In this document: positions 29,718 to 36,712 of the stretch, piece by piece
Numbering within the stretch: position 1 is the stretch's first letter
Layout: each line of letters opens with the position of its first letter
From: an uncultured Christensenella sp.
GTDB taxonomy: Bacteria > Bacillota > Clostridia > Christensenellales > Pumilibacteraceae
NCBI GenBank assembly: GCA_949948895.1
Contig: CATLHE010000010.1
Coordinates: 1-64,000 of the forward strand
Direction: 5' to 3'
Length of the DNA: 64,000 nucleotides
The notes under the pieces: generated by a model
What the model saw: the letters and a program-made list of their open reading frames with translations, nothing else
The model's database searches: none
What the model was told of the DNA's origin: nothing
Translations under genes and position numbers: made by a program

Positions 29718-31253
29718 ATGTCTAAGAACATCAAGGAGCGCGCCGAGCGCAACGCCAAGATACGGCGCACAGTCGCGCAGATAGAAAAGACGGTAAATAA
29801 ATTGGAGCGCATGAAGGACGAGTACCTTCAAAAAGCGACGGACGCGAAAGCGCGCGGGGATTCCGCGTCGTACGCGCTTGCAAAGAGCGGGCTCAACGTC
29901 ACGCTGTCGCAGATAAAGCGCGCCAACGAGATGCTGTTGAATATAGAAATAACGACCGAGCTTCAAAAAATGGGCGAGGTCAATTCCGATTTTTTGACAG
30001 GCATGTCGGTCATTGCCAAGCGTATAGGCAAGATAAACAAACAATCGGATTTTGTCAAGCTCCAAAAAGAAATAGAAAAAGCACTTTCGGGCATGGAAGA
30101 AGCCCAAGCGGGGCTTGACGTGTTTTTGCAGAATACCGACGCGCAGTTTGCCGCCATCTCTCAATCGGAAGGCTCGCTTTCCGATAAGCAGATAGACGAA
30201 TTGGTGGACGGAAAAGTAAGCGAGCGCGAGCTGTTGATGGACGCGCAGATAGACGGACTTTTAGGCGGTAAAGTAAAAGCGGATATCGGAGAAAACAGCC
30301 GCGCCGAAGCGCGTGTTTCTGTCGGCGGTAACGACGATAACGGTAAAGCGGAAGCAAGCGCAAAGTCGGTCGCGAAGCCGTTTCCCGAGCCTCTCGGCAG
30401 GTTTGTTTTCGATAAAAAAAGCTCGCCCGAGATAAGTTATTCGGACGTGCTCGGCGGCGGCGAAGAATGCGGCGCGAGCGTCATGCTTGCGGACGTGATA
30501 GAAAAACGCGAAGAGCTCGGCGTGTTTTTGGGTCGGACAGGCGACGGAGAAGTCGTACATGTGCCGTTTTCGGAAGCTCCCGCCATACTTGTCGGCGGCG
30601 TTATCGGCAGCGGAAAAAGCGTATTTATTCATCAGCTTATATGTTCGACGGTGCTTACCCATTCTGCGGAGACGGTGCGGCTCGTTTTGATAGACCTCAA
30701 AAACGAAGAGCTTTCGCGCTATAACGGTATTCCTCATCTTGCGGCAAACGCAGTGACCGATGCATCGGGCGTTATGCCTACGTTAAAAGCTTTGCAGGCG
30801 GAAATAGACCGCAGGTACGAGCTTACCGCAGAGTTCGGCGGCAATATAAAAGACTATAACGCGCAGAGAGCCGATAAGCTCCCGTACATCGTTGTCGTTA
30901 TCGACGAGCTTAAAGACGTTATCGAGGCAGTGGGCGGAGCGTTCGAGCGCGAGTTCGGCAGAGTATCGAGACAAGCCGCGGCTGTCGGAGTGTACTTTGT
31001 CGCGGCGACGCGCGTCGTCGATAAAAGCACTCTTACGCCGCTCATAAGCGCGGCTTTTCCCGCTCGCGCGGCGTTCAGGACCGATACAAAAGACGCGTCG
31101 AAGCTTTTGGGCGCAGTCGGCGCGGACGAAATTACGGGCGCGGGCGAGCTGTTGTTTGTAAACGGCGGCAAGAGCGTCAAGTGCGTCGCGCCGTACGTTA
31201 CCGAAAAAGAGATCAACAAAGTGGTCGCCGCTTTCGCCGAGGATAGGATATGA
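29718..31253 (+). CDS. Soluble FtsK/SpoIIIE-type ATPase fused to an ESCRT-III-like helical domain
   Basis: A 511-residue protein. Residues ~1-180 are long charged helices clearly homologous to the next gene product: shared SYALAKSGL/QYALAKNAI, EMLLNIEITTEL/QMLLNLQISSQI, and a later LSDKQIDELV/VTGDEIDKMI. A linker (~180-240) leads to an FtsK/SpoIIIE motor domain. Its Walker A is GGVIGSGKSVF (~294-303), followed by LVLIDLKNEELSRYNGIPHL, Walker B YIVVVIDEL (~390-397), and the RxSRQAAAVGVYFVAATR segment. It has no N-terminal membrane helices and no gamma DNA-recognition domain, so it is not the chromosomal FtsK or SpoIIIE. It could be a translocase or a substrate-remodelling ring guided by the helical domain. 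Ribosome-binding site CGGAGA; it overlaps the next gene by 4 bases. Confidence 0.85.
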   Translation: MSKNIKERAERNAKIRRTVAQIEKTVNKLERMKDEYLQKATDAKARGDSASYALAKSGLNVTLSQIKRANEMLLNIEITTELQKMGEVNSDFLTGMSVIAKRIGKINKQSDFVKLQKEIEKALSGMEEAQAGLDVFLQNTDAQFAAISQSEGSLSDKQIDELVDGKVSERELLMDAQIDGLLGGKVKADIGENSRAEARVSVGGNDDNGKAEASAKSVAKPFPEPLGRFVFDKKSSPEISYSDVLGGGEECGASVMLADVIEKREELGVFLGRTGDGEVVHVPFSEAPAILVGGVIGSGKSVFIHQLICSTVLTHSAETVRLVLIDLKNEELSRYNGIPHLAANAVTDASGVMPTLKALQAEIDRRYELTAEFGGNIKDYNAQRADKLPYIVVVIDELKDVIEAVGGAFEREFGRVSRQAAAVGVYFVAATRVVDKSTLTPLISAAFPARAAFRTDTKDASKLLGAVGADEITGAGELLFVNGGKSVKCVAPYVTEKEINKVVAAFAEDRI

Positions 31254-31819
31254 GCAAAGAGAAAAAACGCATAAAAGAGCAAATGCTCGTGAACGAGGCG
31301 ATAGCGTCCATAAAGCGTCAACTCACGAGCCTTGAAAACAGCCGCGCGAAGTATATTGCCGCGGCGGCAAAAGCGCGAGCAAACGGTATCTCGTCGCAGT
31401 ATGCGCTTGCGAAAAACGCGATACGCATAGTGACCGCGCAAAAAACCGTCGTTGAGCAAATGCTTTTGAATTTGCAAATAAGCTCGCAGATCAAAGACGT
31501 GTCCGAAATGACCAAGATATTTGCCGACGGCATGAAGCTTTTGTCGGGCTCCATAGTGGATACGACGGACGGGCTCAAATTTGAAAAGGTATCCAAGCAA
31601 ATGGCAAAAGCCACGCTTTCGACGCAAATGAAGCAGGCGGAAGCGGACGCGTTTTTGGACGCAACGCAGGCGGGATTCGAGAGCTTTTCCGAAATGTCGG
31701 GCGGCGTGACAGGCGACGAGATCGACAAAATGATAGAAGCGGAAATGACGGGCGGCATGGGCGTCGACGCGGAAATAGAAGAACTCACGCGCAAACTGAG
31801 ATCGATTAAAGAAGAATAG
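31250..31819 (+). CDS. Small ESCRT-III (Snf7/Vps2)-like helical protein with C-terminal MIM1-like motif
   Basis: A 189-residue, all-helical, soluble protein. Its first ~65 residues are strongly basic (KEKKRIKEQ, IKRQLTSLENSRAKYI, AKARANG). The last ~40 are acidic (GDEIDKMIEAEM, VDAEIEEL), the charge split seen in eukaryotic and archaeal ESCRT-III subunits. It ends DAEIEELTRKLRSIKEE (173-189), close to the MIM1 helix of Vps2/CHMP proteins (L-x-x-R/K-L-x-x-L/I-K) that binds Vps4 MIT domains. The neighbour encodes exactly such an MIT-AAA protein. The N-terminal domain of the preceding FtsK-like protein is a paralogue. It is distinct from PspA/Vipp1, which lack a MIM tail. Start ATG overlaps the upstream TGA. 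The fold assignment is by pattern and context, not by search. Confidence 0.65.
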   Translation: MSKEKKRIKEQMLVNEAIASIKRQLTSLENSRAKYIAAAAKARANGISSQYALAKNAIRIVTAQKTVVEQMLLNLQISSQIKDVSEMTKIFADGMKLLSGSIVDTTDGLKFEKVSKQMAKATLSTQMKQAEADAFLDATQAGFESFSEMSGGVTGDEIDKMIEAEMTGGMGVDAEIEELTRKLRSIKEE

Positions 31820-31820
31820 C

Positions 31821-32891
31821 ATGTCTGATAACGTTTTGGAATTGGAATTATTCGACAACGCGTACAAAGCGGCGACTGCGGCGCTTACTCGCGGCGATAC
31901 GGATACGGCGCGCAAGTATTTTATGCGCGCCGCAGATATCATGAATAGCCTCGCGGAAAAAAGCGAGCCGCCGCTATCTGAAACGCGCAAAGCGCGCGCC
32001 GAAAAACTGCGGTACATAGCGGACAATCTAGACGATACCGCAATGGGGCGTATCGAAAAGGACGGCGCGAGCGCGGAAGAGACGGAAAGTCGGTTCATAG
32101 ACACACAAAAGCGACCTACCGAGAGCGTGTCGTTCGACGATATAATCGGCTTGGACGACGCTAAGGCGGCGATACATAAGCTTTTGATCGATCCGCTCAA
32201 AAATCCCCAAGCATATCTTAGGTACGGCATAAAAGCGGGCGGGTTTATTCTGTTGGAAGGTCCGCCGGGAACGGGTAAGACTACGTTTGCAAAGGCGGCG
32301 GCGAGCGAGCTATCCGTTCCGTTTTCCGAGATAGACGCAAACGCGCTCGTCGATTCTTACATAGGCAAAACGGGCAAGAATATTGACAGAATGTTTCGCG
32401 AGGCGCGCGCGCTCGCAAAAAATAACGGCACGCCCGTCGTACTGTTTATAGACGAGATAGATTATCTCGCGCAAAAACGCGGCGGCGAGAATAAGACGGC
32501 GGCGGAAGCCGTACCCGCGCTCATCAAGCAAATGGACGGGTTTTCGACCGGCTCGGACGACCTCGTCATAATAGCTGCAACAAACATAAAAAACACGTTG
32601 GACCCCGCGATCTTAAGTCGGTTCGGCAACGTGATACATATACCGCTCCCGACAGAGTCCGAGCGCGCGGAGATATTGAGGAGCAAGCTGAAAATGCTCG
32701 ATCCCGCGGATATTGCCGCGCTCGATTTTTCTGCTGCGGCTAAAAAATCGGAAGGGTTTTCGGGCAGAGACTTATCCAAGGTGGCTTTGGACCTTAAAAG
32801 CGCGCTTGCGGCGCGCGACGCGGGCGTCAAGCCTATAAACATGCCGCTCGGCAGGCTTTTGAACGAACTGATAGAAAAGACCGTAAAATAA
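31821..32891 (+). CDS. Vps4-like AAA ATPase with N-terminal MIT-like domain
   Basis: A 356-residue protein. Residues ~8-72 form three predicted helices with the MIT pattern (AYKAATAALTRGDTDTARKYFMRAADIM ... RKARAEKLRYIADNL), like Vps4 and spastin. The AAA core follows SFDDIIGLDDAK (~104-114). It has Walker A GPPGTGKT (147-154), a pore-loop-like DSYIGKTGK (~179-187), Walker B VLFIDE (207-212) and sensor-1 ATN (253-255). The segment LDPAILSRFGNVIHIPLP (~260-277) parallels Vps4 and carries the arginine finger at ~R267. FSGRDLSKVA (~313-322) matches the Vps4 YSGADI segment. The second Arg of the Vps4 pair is missing. It starts 1 base after the ESCRT-like gene. Expected role: remodelling the ESCRT-like polymer through the MIT-MIM contact. 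Confidence 0.82.
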   Translation: MSDNVLELELFDNAYKAATAALTRGDTDTARKYFMRAADIMNSLAEKSEPPLSETRKARAEKLRYIADNLDDTAMGRIEKDGASAEETESRFIDTQKRPTESVSFDDIIGLDDAKAAIHKLLIDPLKNPQAYLRYGIKAGGFILLEGPPGTGKTTFAKAAASELSVPFSEIDANALVDSYIGKTGKNIDRMFREARALAKNNGTPVVLFIDEIDYLAQKRGGENKTAAEAVPALIKQMDGFSTGSDDLVIIAATNIKNTLDPAILSRFGNVIHIPLPTESERAEILRSKLKMLDPADIAALDFSAAAKKSEGFSGRDLSKVALDLKSALAARDAGVKPINMPLGRLLNELIEKTVK

Positions 32892-32916: not shown

Positions 32917-33399
32917 ATGACGAGAGCGGAAATCGGCCGCGAATATTTTTTGGACGGATGTAATTGCAGTCAATCTGTGGTTATGGCGTTTTCCGATCTT
33001 TTGGATATAGACGAAAAGACTTTGATGCGGTTATCGTTGCCTTTCGGCAGCGGCACTGGACGAATGAGATTGATGTGCGGCGCGCTTAACGGCGCGTTTA
33101 CAGTGCTAGGATTGTTGTACGGCGACTGTGACGGTCGCAAGACTTATAACAAAGACGAGATGTATGGATTAGTGCAAAAAATACGCGATCGGTTCAAGGA
33201 GCGGCACGGCACTATAATGTGCGGCGCGCTTTTGAGCGGCGTAAACGTTTCGACGGCGCCCGTGTCCGACGTTCGCGACGCTACGTATTATAAAAAGCGT
33301 CCGTGTCCCAATTTCGTATACGATACGGTGGAAATATTGGAAGAGTTTATCGATTCCCACGGAATAAAGAATAAAAAGGCGGCGTACAGTGGGCGATAA
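32917..33399 (+). CDS. C_GCAxxG_C_C-family cysteine-rich redox protein
   Basis: A 160-residue protein with the family pattern: GREYFLDGCNCSQSVVMAF at the N-terminus, PFGSGTGRMRLMCGALNGAF (the CGAxxG core) near residue 50, GTIMCGALLSGV near 105, and a final Cys in RPCPNFVYDTVEILEEF. Members are thought to be redox-active or metal-binding, and many are found beside transporters or in anaerobe accessory loci; the exact reaction is not known. Ribosome-binding site AAGGGG. The downstream TIR-NLR gene begins inside its 3' end (11-base overlap), so the two are coupled. It follows the Vps4-like gene by 25 bases. Confidence 0.85.
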   Translation: MTRAEIGREYFLDGCNCSQSVVMAFSDLLDIDEKTLMRLSLPFGSGTGRMRLMCGALNGAFTVLGLLYGDCDGRKTYNKDEMYGLVQKIRDRFKERHGTIMCGALLSGVNVSTAPVSDVRDATYYKKRPCPNFVYDTVEILEEFIDSHGIKNKKAAYSGR

Positions 33400-36300
33400 G
33401 TACGACGTTTTTCTCTCATATGCCAGAAGCGACAGCGAAAAGACGGTCGAACTCGTTTATCGAAAACTGTGCGCCGCAGGGCTTAAGCCTTGGTGGGATC
33501 GCGCCGATATGACGCAACGCGAGCTCGTTTTTACAGAGGAGATCGGCAAGGTCATTCGCTCCGTAGACAGGCTCGTTCTGTTTATAGGTCCGAATACGGC
33601 GGCGAGCGCATACGTTGATGCGGAATGGCGGTACGCCCGCAGCGTCGGGGTCAAAGTCTATCCCGTGCTTTATAATTGCGATAACAACGTTACCGACAGG
33701 ATAAAACTCGTTCCCGCGCGGCTTGCGGGCGGGCATGTTCGCGATATTTCCGATACGTCCGATTTCGAGCGGGAGACGGATAAGCTCATAGCCGATCTTA
33801 AATGCCCGCTCAGTCTGCTGTCGGTCAATCATAACGTGCCGAAACTGCCGTTCGGATACGTGGAGCTAGGCGAATTCATAGACGGCATATCCGACTGCTT
33901 GTTTTCCTCGTCCTCGGACGGGATAGGCGTAAAGCGCATAGTGTCGCTCAACGGCATGGGCGGTATAGGCAAATCCACCGTCGCTGCCGCGTTTTGTTGC
34001 GACGAAACGGTGCGCCGCGCCTTTTCCGATATCTATTGGATAAAGCTCGGCGCGGAAGCGGACATCAGGAGCGCGTGGCGTGATATAGCCGAAGAACTCG
34101 ACAAGCCCGGCGATCTCAACGAGACGGAGATCATGCGCGAGCTGTCGCGCACGTTTGCGGATACCGATTGTCTGTTTGTTCTGGACGATTGCTGGCACGT
34201 GGAAATAGTGGAGTTTTTTAAGTGCGCGCTTGACAGAACGCGCAACCGCGTGTTGTTTACTTCGCGCGATCTTTCGATAAACAACGTTCTCGGTATCGAT
34301 CATATCGATATCAAAAAGCTCGGTAATTCGCAGGCGAAAAAACTGCTTGCAAACCGTTGCAGATTGGACGTAAACGAACTGCCCGAAGCGTGCGATACTC
34401 TGTTGGAAAAGCTGGGCGGGCATCCGCTCGCCATCGCTATCAGCGCCTCTATGTACCTCGAATGGAACGATTGGAATTTGATAATCGATTCCTATTACGA
34501 ATCGGAATCCGAGTTCGGAATGAATATGCCCGACTACGGTTATAAAAACGTTTTCCTTTCCGTCTCCGCATCGTTGAAACTGCTTAGCGAAAATTACCGC
34601 AAAGCTTTTGAAAAACTCGTCGTGTTCCCGTACGGCAAGTCGATCGATATAGGCGTTTTGGGTCGGTTCGTAAGCGTCGATATTTGCGGCGATAAATCCG
34701 ACGGGCTTGCCGCAAAAACGTCGATATTCGTTAAAAAATTGGCGTCCAAATCGCTTATAGAATTCGACGAGCAAAGCAAGTCTGTTACGGTACACCCGCT
34801 TATCTTGGATTATCTTAAAAAGTCGGCGGACGAACGGCGGCTGCAAAATTTGTTTTTGGAATGTATAAGCGGCGAAAGCGAAGATTATTATTACGAGAAT
34901 ATCATATATCATTTGATAAGAGCGGGTAGCGTCGATAAGGCGAAGCGCGTTTTGTTCGACTACGCGTATTTGATCAAGAAGATCGAGATATGCGGTGTCA
35001 ACGACCTCATTACCGATCTGTCTTATTTTGACGGCGACGACAAAGAACTTTTGCTTTTCGAGGATTTTATTCGGCTTGCCGCGCCGATAATCCGTAACGA
35101 GCCGCTCGAATTGGTCAGTCAGCTGTTCGGTCGGTTTGAGTACCCCATGAGCGACGCGCCGCTTATAAACAGTCTGATGCAAAGCGCGCTTTGCGAGAAA
35201 AAGGTTTGTTTTATACCCGTTAAGCCGTGCATGAATCCGCCGCGCACTGCGCTCGTCAATCATTTCAGCGCCGAAAACAAGATATTCGGGTTGCATAGGT
35301 ATCGCAAGACCATAGTTATTTCGGACAAGTCGGGACAAGTATCGCTCGTCGATACTTCGAAGATGATTCAGATCGGACAGTTTTCCGTCGACGGCTGGGT
35401 CATCGACGCGTTTGTGCATAACGGCTGTCTGTGGGTGGTCTATGACAAAAATAAGCTTGTGCTTTTCGATATTGACAGCGGCGACGATGTGCAAAGATAT
35501 ACGCTCGACGGCATGTATCAAGCGCATGCGTCAAACGCTAAGGGAACGTACATAGGCGATCTTACGGGCGCTGTGTACATTTTTAACAAAGACAACGTTT
35601 TAATCGAGCGCGCACATTTGCTTACCGGCATCAGCTTTATGCGCGACAATAACGGCGCTATCGAGGTGTACGGGCTTAATAAATGCGTGTACGAGATGCG
35701 CGGGACCGAGTTCGTACTGAAAGAACAGTCCGATCACCGTGTCGTCAAAGCCGACGGCAACGCAGAGCTCGGTTACGACGGCATACTAAGGTTTAACGGT
35801 GGTACGGCGGAAGGCGTGGTCGACTTCGACAGCGTCGGGAATACTCTTGGCTATATAACCAAGGCAAAACGCATTGTTGCGCTCGATACGTCGAGCGGCG
35901 CCGTCGTAAAAGAGTTTGTCTCAAACAACAACTTATCGCACATAGTCGCAGACGGCGATCATTTGTACGTGAGCGACGATCAGAATACCGTGGATAAATG
36001 GGATATAACGCTCGAACAAAAGGGCGGGATATTCGTCGAGCCGTGGGTGACCGCTCAGGCGTATTTTGACGGTACCCGCTACTATGCGGCGTTTGACGGA
36101 AAAGTTTATGCGGACGGCGCGCCGATAATAGATACGGGGGAATGGCCGAACGGACTTGCGGCTTCCGATAAGTATTTGATCTTTGCCAACGGTATCAACG
36201 AACTGAAAATTTACGACCGAAAAACTTTCGCGTCCGTATGCACGGTGAACTGCGAGAAAGCGGTCACGGGTATTACGTGCCTCGGGTCTCGGGTGTATAT

Positions 36301-36712
36301 TTCCGACGGCGTGGGCACGGTCGGCGTGTTCGATCTGGACTCGCAAAAACTATGCGAAAGAAAAAAGGTGGGCAGCTGGATCAACTCTATCGCGTCTTTC
36401 TCCGATACGATCATAGTCGCGGATCGCTACGGCAGGATATTCTTGCTGTCGCCGGACGGGCTCGAAAAAGAAAAAGAGATCAAAGTCGGGGAAGAAATAA
36501 CGTCGGTGGCGGCGGTGCAAACCGAGTCGTCGCGGTATATAGCGTATGCTAATCAGAGAGGGGTCGTCAAACTGATCGATCTCGAAGGGAAACGGCATGC
36601 CGTTTATCATACGACTATTTCGCATATACTTTCCATGCTATACGTAAACTGGGCGCTTAACATTTCGACCGATCTGACGACTGAAAAAGTAAATATAGCA
36701 AATCTTAAATAA
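33389..36712 (+). CDS. TIR - NB-ARC (STAND) - beta-propeller protein, NLR/APAF-1-like
   Basis: A 1,107-residue protein with GTG start. Residues ~4-135 are a TIR domain (YDVFLSYARSD; the putative NADase Glu in SAYVDAEWRYA, ~E79). The NB-ARC ATPase follows, with P-loop GMGGIGKST (189-197), Walker B CLFVLDDCW (261-269), the sensor segment RNRVLFTSRD and GLPL-type GGHPLAIAI. A winged-helix-like segment (~450-480) and a helical spacer lead to a C-terminal ~480-residue repeat region of WD40-like strands (for example VIDAFVHNGCLWVVYDKNKLVLFDIDSG), probably a beta-propeller sensor. Such STAND proteins oligomerise on ligand binding and activate the effector; TIR effectors cleave NAD+ or make signalling nucleotides. 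Overlap with the C_GCAxxG gene and a terminator at its end mark it as the last gene of the cassette. An antiphage role is likely but unproven. Confidence 0.88.
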   Translation: MGDKYDVFLSYARSDSEKTVELVYRKLCAAGLKPWWDRADMTQRELVFTEEIGKVIRSVDRLVLFIGPNTAASAYVDAEWRYARSVGVKVYPVLYNCDNNVTDRIKLVPARLAGGHVRDISDTSDFERETDKLIADLKCPLSLLSVNHNVPKLPFGYVELGEFIDGISDCLFSSSSDGIGVKRIVSLNGMGGIGKSTVAAAFCCDETVRRAFSDIYWIKLGAEADIRSAWRDIAEELDKPGDLNETEIMRELSRTFADTDCLFVLDDCWHVEIVEFFKCALDRTRNRVLFTSRDLSINNVLGIDHIDIKKLGNSQAKKLLANRCRLDVNELPEACDTLLEKLGGHPLAIAISASMYLEWNDWNLIIDSYYESESEFGMNMPDYGYKNVFLSVSASLKLLSENYRKAFEKLVVFPYGKSIDIGVLGRFVSVDICGDKSDGLAAKTSIFVKKLASKSLIEFDEQSKSVTVHPLILDYLKKSADERRLQNLFLECISGESEDYYYENIIYHLIRAGSVDKAKRVLFDYAYLIKKIEICGVNDLITDLSYFDGDDKELLLFEDFIRLAAPIIRNEPLELVSQLFGRFEYPMSDAPLINSLMQSALCEKKVCFIPVKPCMNPPRTALVNHFSAENKIFGLHRYRKTIVISDKSGQVSLVDTSKMIQIGQFSVDGWVIDAFVHNGCLWVVYDKNKLVLFDIDSGDDVQRYTLDGMYQAHASNAKGTYIGDLTGAVYIFNKDNVLIERAHLLTGISFMRDNNGAIEVYGLNKCVYEMRGTEFVLKEQSDHRVVKADGNAELGYDGILRFNGGTAEGVVDFDSVGNTLGYITKAKRIVALDTSSGAVVKEFVSNNNLSHIVADGDHLYVSDDQNTVDKWDITLEQKGGIFVEPWVTAQAYFDGTRYYAAFDGKVYADGAPIIDTGEWPNGLAASDKYLIFANGINELKIYDRKTFASVCTVNCEKAVTGITCLGSRVYISDGVGTVGVFDLDSQKLCERKKVGSWINSIASFSDTIIVADRYGRIFLLSPDGLEKEKEIKVGEEITSVAAVQTESSRYIAYANQRGVVKLIDLEGKRHAVYHTTISHILSMLYVNWALNISTDLTTEKVNIANLK

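Follow-up and report, generated by a model that had tools for sequence, protein, structure and literature searches.

Known systems and the layout of the locus

The pairing of an ESCRT (endosomal sorting complex required for transport) filament subunit with an ATPase that disassembles the filament is reported as confined to archaea and eukaryotes. Here we describe a three-gene locus from an uncultured Christensenella sp. that is probably a reduced form of an ESCRT-III/Vps4-type filament-remodelling system from one order of Clostridia. It lies on contig CATLHE010000010.1 (assembly GCA_949948895.1), within the 64,000-nucleotide stretch analysed here (the window), and encodes a fusion protein with an FtsK/SpoIIIE-type motor, a small helical protein of 189 amino acids (aa) and an AAA ATPase. 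The original prediction, made from the sequence without database searches, had described a translationally coupled triplet, and the three open reading frames were confirmed at the predicted positions and spacings, the first two overlapping by 4 bases and the last two separated by 1 base. The features are as follows:

29718..31253, + strand: ESCRT-III-like domain fused to an FtsK/SpoIIIE-type motor, 511 aa (Pfam match; homology to the 189-aa protein)
29718..30257, + strand: N-terminal ESCRT-III-like helical domain of the fusion, residues 1–180 (homologous to the 189-aa protein)
30510..31010, + strand: FtsK_SpoIIIE ATPase domain of the fusion, residues 265–431 (Pfam E 2e-28)
31250..31819, + strand: ESCRT-III/Snf7-like protein, 189 aa (Pfam matches of the family; predicted fold)
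31763..31810, + strand: C-terminal helix of the 189-aa protein, residues 172–187, candidate ATPase-recruiting tail that departs from the MIM1 consensus
31821..32891, + strand: Vps4/CdvC-like AAA ATPase, 356 aa, with no recognisable Vps4_C tail in the window member
31821..32042, + strand: MIT-like three-helix N-domain of the AAA protein, residues 1–74 (predicted structure; profile matches)

Among described systems, the archaeal Cdv/ESCRT machinery (CdvB with CdvC/Vps4) resembles the locus in placing an ESCRT-III-like protein beside a Vps4-clade AAA ATPase with an MIT-like domain, and most relatives of the window ATPase carry a Vps4_C tail. SPFH proteins are found in some archaeal ESCRT loci too, according to PMC10936438. 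Unlike the archaeal system, the present one has a bacterial host, FtsK or RuvB fusions in some members and a tail without MIM1; no winged-helix or CdvA partner was noticed, in analyses that included no search aimed at them. The bacterial proteins PspA and Vipp1, including the PspA–YdjI system of Bacillus subtilis, have the ESCRT-III superfamily fold that is predicted for the 189-aa protein, and an SPFH zinc-ribbon protein in the operon is common to that system and to relatives of our locus. The family described here differs in matching the Pfam family Snf7 rather than PspA_IM30 and in having a dedicated Vps4-like ATPase in 71/71 loci. These loci were obtained by a scan of named genomes with conserved peptides as query, and the scan is therefore biased to closer relatives.

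PMC8281802 leaves it unsettled if an ATPase corresponding to Vps4 exists for PspA or Vipp1, and the passages available from PMC7615534 carry no mention of a bacterial Vps4 pair. The available passages of Ravi et al. 2024 (PMC11237479) report that Vps4-like genes have been transferred to bacteria, where a TPR-6TM protein takes the place of snf7, that homologues of PspA or Snf7 occur close to AAA ATPases, and that PspA is found together with a protein of two AAA domains. They thus share with our locus a bacterial Vps4-like AAA protein and the proximity of the two partners, and a bacterial pair is therefore not unprecedented as an idea, although the triplet operon and the FtsK/RuvB fusions are not described in those passages. 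No description of the operon or of an ESCRT-III–FtsK fusion was found in the titles and abstract openings listed by full-text searches of the open-access literature, with subscription papers mostly outside it.

Affiliation of the 189-aa protein

The 189-aa protein and the N-terminal domain of the fusion form one family (E 3.7e-20, 28% identity), as first proposed. Used as query against the window genome, the 189-aa protein returned only itself and that N-terminus. The basic N-terminal half and acidic C-terminal half noticed at the outset are kept in all 57 aligned members of the small-protein family. Snf7 ranks first among the 104 Pfam families matched by the family: at E ≤ 10 it matches 25 of the 57 proteins, with a lowest E of 4.6e-6, and the runner-up matches 9. 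The window protein alone is not recognisable as Snf7 (E 0.33); PF04012 (PspA_IM30) is absent from its three Pfam matches at E ≤ 10, and the window genome has no PF04012 match at E 0.01. Two fusions of the domain, L142 and L144, align with Snf7 over model positions 4–151 of 171 (E 2.4e-5, 24.5 bits) and 2–146 (E 6.2e-4, 19.9 bits), respectively, both below the 27.3-bit cut-off. When 41 genomes were searched with Snf7 in all six frames, nothing scored above the cut-off, the Sulfolobus control likewise falling below it, and 4 of the 19 matches listed landed on the small-protein family, covering most of the model.

The AlphaFold model of the 189-aa protein, whose prediction had been proposed as a check on 31250–31819, has a mean predicted local distance difference test (pLDDT) score of 68 and is most confident in its first 80 residues. 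It contains helices at residues 3–44, 48–105, 111–147, 155–166 and 172–187, which follow the ESCRT-III order of α1, α2/3, α4, α5 and C-terminal helix. The top Foldseek match was CHMP2A–CHMP3, at probability 1.00 yet with a non-significant E of 0.15, and 14 of the best 50 rows were ESCRT-III superfamily members. In VIA, residues 1–110 superpose on Asgard ESCRT-IIIB at 2.2 Å and residues 6–109 on Snf7 at 2.5 Å; bMERB domains score equally high there, and BAR and rubrerythrin folds come close. The fold search is therefore supportive, not decisive. A PDB profile search with the small-protein family returned solely S100-A5 and a coiled-coil peptide. We consider it highly probable that the family is a member of the ESCRT-III superfamily.

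The ATPase, the motor fusions and their neighbours

In every one of the 71 loci, as established by an all-frame check, a gene of the AAA family begins no more than 4 kb downstream of the small protein on the same strand, and in 57 of them within 200 nt, so the small protein and the Vps4-like ATPase are a constant pair. The window ATPase matches the AAA family of Pfam at E 1.3e-35, and both Walker motifs are present in 44 of 48 aligned members of its family. A tree groups this clade with Vps4, CdvC, katanin and spastin, not with p97, PAN or FtsH (support 98/94), and the same grouping is found with AAA columns only (95/93; L161 and L143 left out). Eight of the 12 reference sequences were entered by hand, the Vps4-type reference clade is itself weakly supported in both trees (68/47 and 70/48), and the alternative placement with p97-D2 has an approximately unbiased test value (p-AU) of 0.0545. 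Against the CdvC equivalog NF041006, the window protein aligns from residue 16 and scores 150 bits, under the curated cut-off of 650, as do six further family members (165–224 bits); the alignment spans residues 8–366 of 379 in the L117 ATPase. The Vps4_C tail is kept in 39 of 48 members, the window protein not among them. Architecture and trees together support the assignment of the protein to a putative Vps4/katanin/spastin-clade ATPase.

The N-domain of the ATPase is modelled as three helices with pLDDT values of 82–97 by block. Pfam MIT matches it in 4 of 28 proteins (best E 1.5e-4), and PDB entries 2w2u and 2v6y (p60 katanin), which we take to be archaeal MIT domains, appear at E 0.02–0.26 among 30 weak rows; TPR models and a designed protein match it also. 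In an ATPase variant at L058 (10577–12706), an MIT-like N-terminus is followed by a SpoVK/CbbX-like AAA module and then by a CDC48/CdvC-like one.

Walker A (GVIGSGKS) and Walker B (VVVIDEL) are both retained in the motor of the window fusion. Only residues 265–431 match FtsK_SpoIIIE in Pfam, with no FtsK alpha domain found, and the ATQRP motif is missing. The protein thus shares motor-domain homology with FtsK/SpoIIIE translocases and, unlike them, appears to be a motor domain alone behind an ESCRT-III-like domain, rather than a complete translocase with alpha, motor and DNA-reading parts; two other FtsK_SpoIIIE genes above the cut-off are located elsewhere in the window genome. In another genus of the family, L032 and L143 carry the ESCRT-III-like domain together with both FtsK alpha and motor domains. 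The domain is also fused to RuvB, with P-loop, lid and winged helix, in L142 (2966–4633) and L144 (1301–4186), and the L144 fusion also matches, weakly, a TnsA-like endonuclease. Searched across the order with a profile built from the fusion-type domain, 37 of 396 genomes (window genome counted) gave 54 matches, 7 of them in frames longer than 400 aa (one in G755). Judged from these sequences, the ESCRT-III-like domain has repeatedly been joined to putative DNA motors, and to our knowledge no comparable ESCRT system has FtsK or RuvB fusions.

The small-protein family was found in 16 of 61 genomes, window included, and across the order in 32 of 297 genomes and 17 of 116 genera (window genome counted). 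A sample of the class gave 5 matches in 391 genomes, window included; one of these, G407 (E 2.5e-4, positions 28–70, with a stop), was marginal and was treated as chance. In a sample of the phylum the window genome was the sole match at E ≤ 1e-4 (1/398; 0/397 others). The family is accordingly accessory and patchy within one order of Clostridia. A viral origin was set aside, one pattern-based scan of viral contigs having found no relative.

The window triplet begins 11 bases past plsY, which itself overlaps der by 4 bases, and is therefore probably the tail of a der–plsY operon; spoIVA lies downstream. A search for the same gene order elsewhere, suggested in the original prediction, recovered der–plsY–triplet in three other genomes, L049, L050 and L051 (the same contigs as G014, G017 and G012), of which L050 is Anaerocaecibacter muris CLA-AA-M11, a member of the window's genus. 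Immediately after the ATPase gene, the window has a C_GCAxxG_C_C redox family protein (32917–33399, +), with none listed there in the three other genomes. Between the triplet and spoIVA lies an 1107-aa TIR–NB-ARC–APAF1_C-like protein with beta-propeller-like repeats (33389–36712, +), which is a STAND-type signalling or defence protein. The corresponding interval of L049, L050 and L051 has no such TIR/NB-ARC gene, and TIR was rejected as a fixed component; TIR proteins are present in some other loci.

Upstream of the small protein, within 200 nt, 65 of the 71 loci have a member of the c5 family (L117 9376–9981 and homologues), which is conserved, about 200 aa long and without a convincing Pfam family. 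Its PDB rows are two, a SusD homologue and a designed protein. As a second ESCRT-III, c5 was rejected by profile comparison with the small-protein family (probability 1%, E 0.05), and Snf7 is not among the best 25 of 43 Pfam families listed for its 42 members, in a listing that would pass over a match of one member alone. The upstream cluster c4 occurs in 58 of the 71 loci, and those of its members that were checked against Pfam, from L117 and L030 (a copy of the L058 locus), are SPFH/Band_7_1 proteins that bear zinc ribbons. SPFH neighbours are also present in L032 and L041, which are not among the 71 loci. Other proteins found near some loci are large zinc-ribbon/TPR proteins, in part with TIR or LRR domains, as well as trypsin-like proteases and BrxL. 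In L030, a trypsin-like protease and a giant TIR–TPR–LRR protein follow the two-AAA ATPase. A BrxL-like Lon protease (BREX) gene adjoins the ESCRT-like pair in L054 (5708–7144), where it was Pfam-checked, and its sequence cluster occurs in five loci. The window genome has a second related operon on contig C2 (L161, 4496–10227), with a zinc-ribbon/TIR/TPR protein, SPFH, c5 and a Vps4-like ATPase; the search with the 189-aa protein found no small ESCRT-III-like protein there.

Proposed function and rival explanations

The reading of the triplet as a reduced ESCRT-III/Vps4-type system draws on what computation has revealed, namely the homology within the family, the predicted helix order, the clade and architecture of the AAA protein, the constant pairing and the SPFH-type neighbours in relatives. 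In such a system, the 189-aa protein would most likely polymerise through its long α1–α2/3 hairpin into filaments, which would probably line the membrane's inner face. The AAA protein would be recruited by the acidic C-terminal tail through its MIT-like N-domain and would extract filament subunits with ATP, reshaping or recycling the filament, while the FtsK-fusion protein may co-assemble through its homologous N-domain. We infer an ATP-driven remodelling of an ESCRT-III-like filament; recruitment of the ATPase by the tail, not by MIM1, fits the constant pairing, the acidic tail and the MIT-like N-domain.

Several observations weigh against this reading, most of all in its initial form, a membrane-remodelling system coupled through MIM and MIT with a translocase subunit. 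The MIM1 consensus is (D/E)xxLxxRLxxL(K/R) in the C-terminal tail. Among the 57 tails of the small-protein family, neither the strict nor the relaxed form occurs (0/57 each), and the core [LIVM]xx[RK][LIVM]xx[LIVM][KR] is found only in the window protein (1/57), without the leading acidic residue. The supposed MIM1-like helix is thus not conserved, and MIM1 was rejected as the recruitment motif. In 5 of 6 proteins from relatives, the AAA core scores at least as high with CDC48 models as with CdvC. The MIT-like N-terminus is predicted as a three-helix domain with weak MIT matches, and its assignment to MIT is suggestive, not proven. Lastly, the L049 fusion retains a recognisable motor, the L051 fusion has lost Walker A and has no Pfam match at E 0.05, and L050 has the ESCRT-III-like domain alone. 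The motor therefore appears to be eroding or lost in the window's genus and dispensable there, which argues that the domain, not the motor, is under constraint and that a translocase is not a required subunit in that genus. The initial proposal is partly supported: the ESCRT-III/Vps4-type pair stays the likeliest reading, while MIM1 and the translocase subunit are weakened, although fuller FtsK or RuvB motors are joined to the domain in other genomes.

The FtsK and RuvB fusions make DNA coating the main rival: the helical protein would coat or clamp DNA, or motors bound to DNA, and would be stripped off by the AAA protein, in a nucleic-acid or defence device rather than a membrane one. The alpha-bearing FtsK motors of L032 and L143, the RuvB fusions with lid and winged helix, the BrxL, SNF2 helicase or TIR proteins near some loci, and the CHMP1B–IST1 copolymers bound to single-stranded DNA and RNA among PDB entry titles all speak for it. 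We nevertheless regard it as unlikely: the commonest upstream cluster is of the SPFH type with zinc ribbons rather than a DNA protein, the motor has disappeared from L050 and degenerated in L051, the gene immediately before the window triplet is plsY, which serves phospholipid synthesis, and the viral-contig scan found no relative. Convergence, with an unrelated coiled-coil scaffold and a Cdc48-like unfoldase that gained its TPR- or MIT-like N-domain independently, would account for the weak individual E-values, the nearby VIA scores of bMERB, BAR and rubrerythrin folds, CDC48 models that match the AAA cores at least as well as CdvC, and the TPR and designed-protein matches of the N-domain. 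It is very unlikely in view of the first rank of Snf7 among the Pfam families, the near full-length Snf7 alignments of the fusions, and the AAA clade, Vps4_C tail and extended CdvC alignment in L117.

The preferred ESCRT-III/Vps4-type reading also has a narrower form, a phage-shock-like envelope-stress operon of the PspA/YdjI type, with an ESCRT-III protein and its own ATPase in the place of PspA; we offer this tentatively, as a possibility with less than even chances. In relatives, the upstream SPFH protein carries C-terminal zinc ribbons, an arrangement comparable to that of the B. subtilis ydjFGHL operon of pspA in PMC11237479, and PspA_IM30 is above the cut-off in none of 41 genomes, window included (13 have weaker matches). 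Against it, the window triplet has no SPFH gene, although the second locus in the same genome does.

By analogy with YdjI and PspA, for which PMC8581546 describes a membrane placement, the SPFH neighbour suggests that the present system may also be placed at the membrane, and a first guess at the cell process is envelope maintenance. It is rather doubtful that the locus represents a true bacterial ESCRT with filaments and a dedicated MIT-Vps4 ATPase, in which DNA motors (FtsK, RuvB) on some subunits tie constriction or turnover to DNA movement. If it does, motor-bearing filaments could, for example, clear or guard DNA at a closing membrane neck. The occurrence of the constant bacterial pair in a named strain, A. 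muris CLA-AA-M11, bears on where the ESCRT-III/Vps4 partnership arose.

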